From Glandiceps talaboti (Eukaryota; Hemichordata; Enteropneusta; Spengelidae), in assembly GCF_964340395.1 (NCBI RefSeq), contig NC_135562.1, forward strand, positions 402,001 to 466,000: a DNA stretch of 64,000 nt. Direction: 5' to 3'. Both the position numbers and the translations under genes were made by a program. How positions within the stretch are numbered: the stretch's first letter is position 1; each line of letters starts with the position of its first letter. Below are positions 44,385 through 47,300 of the stretch, one piece after another. The notes under the pieces are model-generated. The model made no database searches and was not told the origin of the DNA. It saw only the letters and a list, made by a program, of their open reading frames with translations.

Positions 44385-47300
44385 CTACAGAAATAACCAA
44401 TCAGAATTTATAAAATAGGATTAGTTGGTGGAAATAACAATCAGGTTTCTTGTTAAATATGGTTGATTGGTTGGTAGAAAGTGGTAAGTTGGTAGAATTG
44501 ACCATTGATATTTTGTGTTAGAATGTAGTAATTAGGTAGATATTACCAATTAGATATCTTTTTAGGGTGTAGTTGTAAACTTACCAATATCCTGTCTGCC
44601 ATCTGGACTATACTGTACTTGTAAATGTAGGGTATATTTACTGGAAATGTGGTAAACTTACCAATATCCTGTCTACCATCTGGACTATACTGTACTTGTA
44701 AATGTAGGGTATATTTAGTGGAAATGTTGTAAACTTACCAATATCCTGTCTACCATCTGGACTATACTGTACTTGTAAATGTAGGGTATGTTTACTGGAA
44801 ATGTTGTAAACTTACCAATATCCTGTCTACCATCTGGACTATACTGTACTTGTAAATGTAGGGTATATTTACTGGAAATGTTGTAAACTTACCAATATCC
44901 TGTCTACCATCTGGACTATACTGTACTTGTAAATGTAGGGTATATTTACTGGAAATGTTGTAAACTTACCAATATCCTGTCTACCATCTGGACTATACTG
45001 TACTTGTAAATGTAGGGTATGTTTACTGGAAATGTTGTAAACTTACCAATATCCTGTCTACCATCTGGACTATACTGTACTTGTAAATGTAGGGTATATT
45101 TACTGGAAATGTGGTAAACTTACCAATATCCTGTCTGCCATCTGGACTATACTGTACTTGTAAATGTAGGGTATGTTTACTGGAAATGTTGTAAACTTAC
45201 CAATATCCTGTCTACCATCTGGACTATACTGTACTTGTAAATGTAGGGTATGTTTACTGGAAATGTTGTAAACTTACCAATATCCTGTCTACCATCTGGA
45301 CTATACTGTACTTGTAAATGTAGGGTATATTTACTGGAAATGTGGTAAACTTACCAATATCCTGTCTACCATCTGGACTATACTGTACTTGTAAATGTAG
45401 GGTATGTTTACTGGAAATGTTGTAAACTTACCAATATCCTGTCTACCATCTGGACTATACTGTACTTGTAAATGTAGGGTATATTTACTGGAAATGTGGT
45501 AAACTTACCAATATCCTGTCTACCATCTGGACTATACTGCACTTCTAAGTGTGGGGTATATTTCCTAATTTCTTCTGCTAATTCTTCTGGTGTGAAACTC
45601 ATAGCAGCAAGGTTGTATGTCCTCAGTTTAAGCTGATGTTGTGGAGCTTCCATCATTTCAACCAATCCTCTCAAACAGTCATCAATGTACATCATTGGTA
45701 GTCGTGTATCTGGTCTCAGATAACAACTATGTTTTCCAGATTCCAGGGCATCGTAAAATATTTGCACAGCATAATCTGAAAAATATTGTCAGAAAAAAAC
45801 ATGATTTCTTTGTGACAATTAGCAAATCAAAGAGCTTATAATTTGAATTGCGTGCAACATAGTGACAATCTGTAATAACATAAACAAGTATTTTCCTGTT
45901 AAAGGACTAATCATCTGATAAACAACAAAACAGTATGTGTGAGATATAGTAAATGAAGAATAAATCTACATGTATAAAGGAAAACTCATACTAAACTACA
46001 ACCCCCATGCAAATATACAAAATTGAAAATGCGTCTGAACTTGAGGTGTGTATTTGTGTTGCTATGGATACAAAAGACATTAATTTAAATAATAATCTAT
46101 GATGTTTGACCTGATTTGACTACTAGTGTTGTTCTCACCTGTTGTACCACCACCTGGTAATGTATCAGCTGATATAACACCTGGAAACCTAAGAGATCTG
46201 AAATCTACTCCAAATTTATAGTAATAGTACTGGAACAAAACAAACAGACAAATTACAATATTTAAATACACATTTGTTTCAATTAAAGGGCTATGTTTCA
46301 ATCCGGGGTTATCGGATTAGTGTTATCTCAATCCTGGGTTATCGGATTAGTGTTATCTCAATCCTGGGTTATCAGATTACTGTTATCTCAATCCTGGGTT
46401 ATCGGATTAGTGTTATCTCAATCCTGGGTTATCGGATTAGTGTTATCTCAATCCTGGGTTATCAGATTAGTGTTATCTCAATCCTGGGTTATTGGATTAG
46501 TGTTATCTCAATCAAGATTACATGGCATCATTCTTTTGTTGTTCCAATAACTCTGCCAAACAATCGTTTTTCACACCTACCGTACTAATTCGAAGTGGGC
46601 CTTTAAGCCAAATAATGTGAATCACTTTATAAGGTTTATTCTGATTGGTTAGAAAACAAAGGAAGCAAGCACATCTGTTGGCTGTAATGTTAATGAGTGA
46701 TAAAATAAATGTATGTTGTCCAATCAGTGACAACCTTGTAATAACTTCACATCATTCCCCCCCCCCCCCCCCACCCCACCACCACCACCCTTAAGCAAGA
46801 TATAAACTACAATAGCAATGTAGTTGTAAATCAATTAAATGATACATTTCTACACTGACGACTAGCTAGTTCACTGGTTAGGTCAAGTTATCCTTATATA
46901 TGTATAGCTACATGCACTCATGTAGGACTTTAGATGCCATAAATACATTGTATGTCCTGGGTCTTGTACTTACCTCTCCTAATAATTCACCATGGACCTT
47001 AGACACCCCATAAATTGTTCTGGGTCTTTGAATTGTTACATCAGGGGTAGGATTCCTGGGTGAATCTGGTCCAAAGGCACCAATTGTACTTGGTACAAAT
47101 ACTCGTAACTGATACTGTTTAGCCAACTCTAAAATATTGTGTACTCCCTCTATGTTCACTTTGATTGCCAGTGGGACATCCATTTCTCCAATTGCACTCA
47201 AGAGGGCGCTAAAGTGGATGACCCAGTCAATCTGCTGGTTGACAACTATTTGTTGCAGATTTTTTGCATCTAAAATATCAGCAAACATGTATGGCCCTGC

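Follow-up and report, generated by a model that had tools for sequence, protein, structure and literature searches.

Tandem repeats that straddle an exon/intron boundary are an already known kind of array, with the amphioxus 'mirages' and the human CBS gene as examples. According to the excerpts of the papers that we use here and below, mirages are minisatellite-like tandem duplications of exon/intron boundaries found in Adh3, the globins BflGb6 and BflGb9, TnC and PGBD5, with units of 10 to 160 bp and in both donor and acceptor versions, and they seemingly leave splicing undisturbed (PMC3087553; PMC3902484); the PGBD5 case was added by the later paper, which cites the one in troponin C (PMC3902484). 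In human CBS a 31-bp variable number tandem repeat (VNTR) at the exon 13/intron 13 boundary, c.1444_1467+7(16_21), is polymorphic with 16–21 tandem copies (PMC2630376), and higher copy numbers have been reported together with lower CBS activity (PMC5188458; tabulated in PMC1395315). The same gene can carry 844ins68, a 68-bp duplication of a junction that leaves the distal site in use (PMC2630376), a site called 'donor' in that paper and 3' splice site in the title of the reference it cites. Tandem repeats situated at exon-intron boundaries have also been tied to new introns in human segmental duplications (PMC2812944). Here we analyze a 64,000-nucleotide stretch (the window) of contig NC_135562.1 of Glandiceps talaboti, an enteropneust hemichordate, in which the donor junction of exon 5 of the L-threonine 3-dehydrogenase gene (TDH) is present in 13 near-identical copies. 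We think that this array is probably a mirage, a neutral minisatellite that spans a splice junction and of which the first donor would be the one used.

TDH is encoded on the minus strand by six exons, with intron phases of 1, 1, 0, 1 and 1 in that order. Positions are those of the window.

59230..59425, minus strand: TDH exon 1, with the start codon
47987..48100, minus strand: TDH exon 2
46974..47296, minus strand: TDH exon 3
46139..46229, minus strand: TDH exon 4
45509..45775, minus strand: TDH exon 5, 267 nt, phase 1 at its end, authentic donor GT at 45508/45507
44245..44384, minus strand: TDH exon 6, the final coding exon
44572..45563, minus strand: 77-bp minisatellite of 12.9 copies, copy 1 being the 3' end of TDH exon 5 and copies 2–13 lying in intron 5

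Spliced together, the six exons give a product of 376 aa with an intact reading frame. It is 100% identical over its full length to the protein listed by NCBI for Glandiceps talaboti as 'L-threonine 3-dehydrogenase, mitochondrial-like', which confirms the host gene named in a first-pass annotation of this DNA. Given this identity, the NCBI model splices from donor 1 both in exon 5 and in exon 2, a second exon with a duplicated donor (see below). The best solved relative of the product is the mitochondrial TDH 4yr9, and Pfam assigns it to the NAD-dependent epimerase/dehydratase family.

TRF detected the array with a period of 77, 97% matches, 0% indels and a score of 1872. The motif GACAGGATATTGGTAAGT occurs exactly 13 times on the minus strand, at a spacing of 77 bp, and the first of these copies coincides with the end of TDH exon 5, whose last exonic base is 45509. 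Thirteen near-identical copies are not chance. As in the amphioxus mirages, the unit spans a real junction (aligned on the donor it takes ca. 54 nt from exon 5 and 23 nt from intron 5), the authentic exon and its donor stay at one edge while all other copies are intronic, the array extending only into intron 5, and the copies carry the AG and GT signals. The donors read TTG/GTAAGT in 13 of 13 cases, with the 9-mer TTGGTAAGT in all of them, and TTTCCAG is kept in 11 of the 12 intra-array acceptors, the one ahead of copy 12 being TTTCCAC. The last copy diverges from the unit past GTAAGTTTACAAC. Copies 2–12 (n = 11) differ in pairwise comparison by a mean of 1.35 of their 77 bases, and only four positions of the unit vary among them. 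The variants of the copies, at unit positions 3, 41, 65 and 75, are partly shared and partly private, without a simply recurring pattern. The exon copy is set apart from the array by four fixed differences that all 12 intronic copies have in common. The identity of the 13 donors might be taken for selection on the decoys, as we will call the extra splice sites, but we rejected this argument as uninformative, since no more than 4 of 77 positions vary among copies 2–12. No match longer than 15 nt to the unit was found elsewhere in the 64-kb window, nor did Rfam give any match there at its gathering scores. The first-pass annotation had already recognized a 13-copy, 77-bp array at this junction, the real donor at 45508/45507 and twelve extra donors, and all three hold, the latter being identical to the real donor over 9 nt. 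The span that it gave, 44569–45775, included the whole of exon 5 and was too wide, and the acceptor-like TTTCCAG that it saw in each unit is missing from one. It did not mention the likeness to the mirages or to the human CBS repeat.

The exon copy is most simply regarded as ancestral and the intronic copies as derived. Exon 5 encodes KYTPHLEV at the place where the array copies encode KYTLHLQV or KHTLHLQV. The proline is kept in 117 of 119 aligned TDH relatives (the best 120 of 7,995 matches, Glandiceps itself being the remaining one) while the array copies encode leucine, and for this reason the exon would be the source of the array. The change from Glu to Gln is a less telling pointer to the order of the copies, Glu being found at that site in 42/119 relatives and Gln in 10/119. 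The variant of copy 1 at position 65 is also present in copies 3, 6 and 12, which suggests that exchange between copies reaches copy 1. Besides, the four fixed differences between exon and array are all located within the first 23 of the 77 positions (P = 0.007; counting only the 54 exonic positions, P = 0.03), and this clustering, spotted after the fact, may indicate that homogenisation reaches the exon end.

How well the extra sites could compete was estimated with a weight matrix built from the splice sites of the two genes of the window, TDH and its neighbor CACNA2D. The exon 5 donor has a leave-one-out score of 9.2 and ranks 14th among 26 donors. When the four array donors were removed from the matrix, 22 of the 996 GT sites in the TDH locus scored at least as high as the exon 5 donor, and 13 of these 22, the exon 5 donor among them, are in the array. 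The array acceptors obtained 1.6–1.8 bits (three scored sites of two sequences, one or the other of which the remaining eight intact acceptors also have), whereas the median of 25 real acceptors is 8.6 and 21 of them are higher; the CACNA2D acceptor at 17229 is uncertain and was left out of these 25, although counted among the junctions analyzed below. The real acceptor of exon 6 is itself weak (4.1 bits). By sequence, the putative decoy donors are full competitors and the putative decoy acceptors poor ones.

The predicted consequences of decoy use are all damaging to the protein. If exon 5 ran on to donor 2, the protein would have 384 aa, a foreign C-terminus and no early stop, and extending the exon to any of donors 3–13 leads to one common premature stop (363 aa), located 53–823 nt upstream of the last junction. 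These transcripts are predicted targets of nonsense-mediated decay by the 50-nt rule, since the stop is more than 50 nt before the last junction, for donor 3 only barely. The first-pass annotation had argued that, 77 not being a multiple of 3, the other donors would usually break the frame. In substance it was right, as the use of any decoy donor would damage the protein; donors 4, 7, 10 and 13 preserve the frame by length yet still contain the 363-aa stop. It had also proposed, as a possibility in principle, twelve cassette mini-exons. A mini-exon from TTTCCAG to the next donor would measure 56 nt and there are 11 intact acceptors to start one, but the proposal was overstated in view of the weak acceptor scores and of the introns between adjacent units, which would be of 21 nt, or 98 nt when one unit is skipped. 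An intron of 21 nt is below the usual metazoan minimum. We translated three combinations: the mini-exon of copy 3 alone yields a 377-aa protein whose end is foreign, and 3+5 or 3+5+7 a premature stop.

On the neutral, mirage-like reading, the exon 5 donor junction would have been duplicated in tandem, which placed a second copy in intron 5 and was tolerated because the original exon and donor stayed intact. The intronic copy would then have drifted, and slippage or unequal exchange, with homogenisation, would later have multiplied it. The spliceosome would take the first donor, through exon definition, as the only one next to the unduplicated part of exon 5 (ca. 213 nt) and the real acceptor of that exon, a choice also favored by this donor being transcribed first, and leakage to donors 3–13 would be removed by nonsense-mediated decay. 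Several points weigh against such an innocuous array. The use of the first donor rests on the NCBI protein model and on the conservation of the protein. In strength the exon 5 donor is middling, the acceptor of exon 6 with which it really pairs is weak, and with donor 13 the intron would measure 200 nt instead of 1124 nt, all of which makes leakage plausible. Furthermore, the fall of human CBS activity with VNTR copies, as reported in the excerpts cited above, implies that donor-spanning arrays need not be neutral.

The exon 5 array does not stand alone. Intact decoys, absent from the first-pass annotation, were also found at TDH exon 2 and at two junctions of the neighboring gene, which codes for a calcium-channel alpha-2/delta subunit (CACNA2D; 21132–1187, on the same minus strand as TDH). 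This gene was found with Ptychodera and Saccoglossus proteins and its splicing was modelled against the Ptychodera protein. The junction-spanning duplications other than the exon 5 array are the following.

47927..48027, minus strand: TDH exon 2 donor-spanning duplication, 45-bp unit, 2.2 copies
4760..4863, minus strand: CACNA2D donor-spanning 52-bp duplication, 2 copies, at the exon ending at 4818
3926..4100, minus strand: CACNA2D acceptor-spanning 56-bp array, 3.1 copies, at the next exon, starting at 3978
8731..8949, minus strand: CACNA2D donor-spanning duplication at the exon ending at 8864, older and degenerate, 119 bp, 1.8 copies, 78% matches

The unit at exon 2 consists of the last 40 nt of the exon plus GTAAG, with 1 difference in 45, and the real and decoy donors are identical over 12 nt. 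Here the decoy donor lies 45 nt downstream and in frame, so that its use would add 15 aa after ILDSG; the NCBI model does not include them. This in-frame duplication is a better candidate than the exon 5 array for a real extra isoform. In CACNA2D, a single intron carries the 52-bp donor duplication at its 5' end and the 56-bp acceptor array at its 3' end. The decoy donor of the former is intact and reads into a stop, and the latter has decoy acceptors TTTATTTCAG ahead of 4035 and 4090. At the exon ending at 8864 the decoy donor has lost its GT.

Other candidates were discarded. The TDH exon 3 donor (46974), which by eye resembled a degenerate duplication, was dropped, as 5% of 300 Markov-shuffled targets reach its alignment score and it is one of 52 junctions examined. 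The CACNA2D junctions at 3242, 17574 and 1391 beat 300/300 Markov shuffles, but 19–22% of ordinary window positions score equally and they were not counted. A 62-bp repeat (1068–1239, 2.7 copies) resembled a donor repeat but was rejected as one because comparison with Ptychodera places a stop codon at that end of the exon; we read it as spanning the coding end and stop codon of CACNA2D rather than a splice site. The CACNA2D exon 14435–14184 has frame lesions near 14352–14338 and across the GLGLMVT..IPAVS segment. Five relatives were compared and are much alike over this stretch, and the other splice joins found in the gene read open; the lesions are either base errors of the assembly or real damage. 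There are also a 63-bp repeat at 6785–7783 (15.9 copies, 98% matches) with a 339-codon frame open on both strands, because 63 is a multiple of 3, and a purine-rich AGAGAG tract at 13286–13897 (612 bp, 102 copies of 6 bp).

We have examined whether junctions are hit by arrays more than expected, over one 64-kb window, two gene models (TDH and CACNA2D) and 52 splice junctions. Counting TRF arrays with a period of at least 25, there are 37 after merging rows, and they fill 17.2% of the window, which is why 9.0 junctions (standard deviation 3.2) are expected inside arrays by circular shift. The actual number is five, four of them donors (P = 0.92 for 5 or more, 0.15 for 5 or fewer). There is thus no excess of array overlap at these 52 junctions by circular shift. 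Arrays cover 7.1% of the coding bases (334/4,693) and 13.4% and 27.0% of the introns of TDH and CACNA2D, respectively, and 31 of the 37 have no contact with coding bases of either gene model. By a self-similarity score, only 2/52 junctions are above the 90% point of ordinary positions, where 5.2 are expected. The scores of the five counted junctions are matched by 8–13% of ordinary window positions, another sign that they are not special within this window. As junctions are not enriched in arrays, no targeting mechanism is needed. A simple account would be that minisatellites arise widely in the region, that those within coding sequence are removed and that those straddling a junction persist, since they leave the original exon with its splice site intact.

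Four other explanations were considered. That tandem duplication is targeted to splice donors, for example by transcription-coupled breakage or reverse splicing, seems the least credible of them; it would fit the predominance of donors among the junctions inside arrays, but the lack of any enrichment of junctions in arrays, the low coverage of coding sequence relative to introns and the self-similarity scores all speak against it. An assembly expansion of one or two real copies is very improbable. Long tandem arrays are error-prone, and the lesions in the CACNA2D exon indicate that this assembly may hold base errors, but the copies show a mixture of shared and private variants instead of simple repetition, the longest contig given for the TDH protein model is 24.5 Mb, the TDH frame is intact and smaller duplications are found at four other junctions of the window.

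We likewise give very little credit to the copies being regulated cassette or poison exons. In favor of it, each unit has a donor and all but one an AG acceptor, the real exon 6 acceptor is weak too, skipping one unit leaves an intron of 98 nt, and copy 3 would produce an altered protein of 377 aa and its combinations with copies 5 and 7 a premature stop. However, the array acceptors score below 21 of 25 real ones, adjacent units would be separated by introns of 21 nt, and all three translated combinations alter or truncate the protein end. Somewhat less improbable, but still unlikely, is that array length tunes TDH output: decoys would divert splicing in proportion to their number, the resulting transcripts would decay and the enzyme would fall, as in CBS. 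The architecture matches that of c.1444_1467+7(16_21), more CBS repeats have been reported with lower CBS activity (PMC5188458), and the twelve decoys are exact 9-nt copies of which 11 yield predicted decay substrates. The excerpts of the amphioxus papers, however, suggest normal splicing despite mirages (PMC3087553; PMC3902484).

Some features of the surroundings of the array can be added. Intron 1 of TDH contains an inverted repeat of ca. 2.4 kb overall (53204–55614), with arms of 382 nt (53204–53585 and 55233–55614, 99% complementary) and additional arms of 68 nt (53585–53652 and 55165–55232), which resembles a transposable element bounded by long terminal inverted repeats. TDH and CACNA2D matches are found on contigs of equal size in several species (Saccoglossus, 348,835 bp; Anneissia, 124,369 bp), which suggests that their linkage is old. 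In the predicted TDH of two fishes, Synaphobranchus kaupii (577 aa) and Pangasianodon gigas (455 aa), a middle segment is duplicated internally and ends in RQTI/RQNI, the place of the Glandiceps exon 5/6 boundary.

Compared with the amphioxus mirages, the differences of the TDH array are its host, a hemichordate, and its 13 copies, the described numbers being 3 and 6 for the amphioxus globins and 2 to 7 for PGBD5 (PMC3087553; PMC3902484). No junction-spanning minisatellite of a hemichordate was found among the openly licensed literature matches listed, and within that literature the host phylum appears to be new for mirages. Next to cephalochordates and one human gene, a hemichordate would now be among the hosts of such arrays, and judging by this window they may be common there. 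We would go further only as a speculation that we consider doubtful: genomes of Glandiceps-type hemichordates may, like that of amphioxus, have such an abundance of minisatellites that about one tenth of their junctions (5/52 here) are in tandem arrays, the TDH array may be a natural 13-fold 5' splice site chosen by exon context and transcription order instead of strength, and its length may be a heritable enzyme dial as in human CBS. In any case, 13 identical donors after one exon are a clean natural experiment on the choice of 5' splice site.

Among the human cases, as far as the excerpts describe them, the CBS VNTR resembles the TDH array in having a donor-spanning unit (24 exonic and 7 intronic nt, from the notation) in a gene for a metabolic enzyme, but it is not homologous, its unit is shorter, its copy number is known to be polymorphic and it has been linked to lower activity (PMC2630376; PMC5188458). 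Similarly, 844ins68 is comparable to the CACNA2D acceptor array at 3926–4100, although it is a single duplication and in another gene (PMC2630376). There is also a parallel with intron gain by tandem duplication (the Rogers model), in which tandem copies with splice signals can become introns (PMC3087553; PMC2812944); in contrast to that model, TDH shows no new intron position and the product of the NCBI model is without inserts. Should copy number prove variable, arrays of this kind would generate splicing variation that is heritable and would offer a way to new introns.
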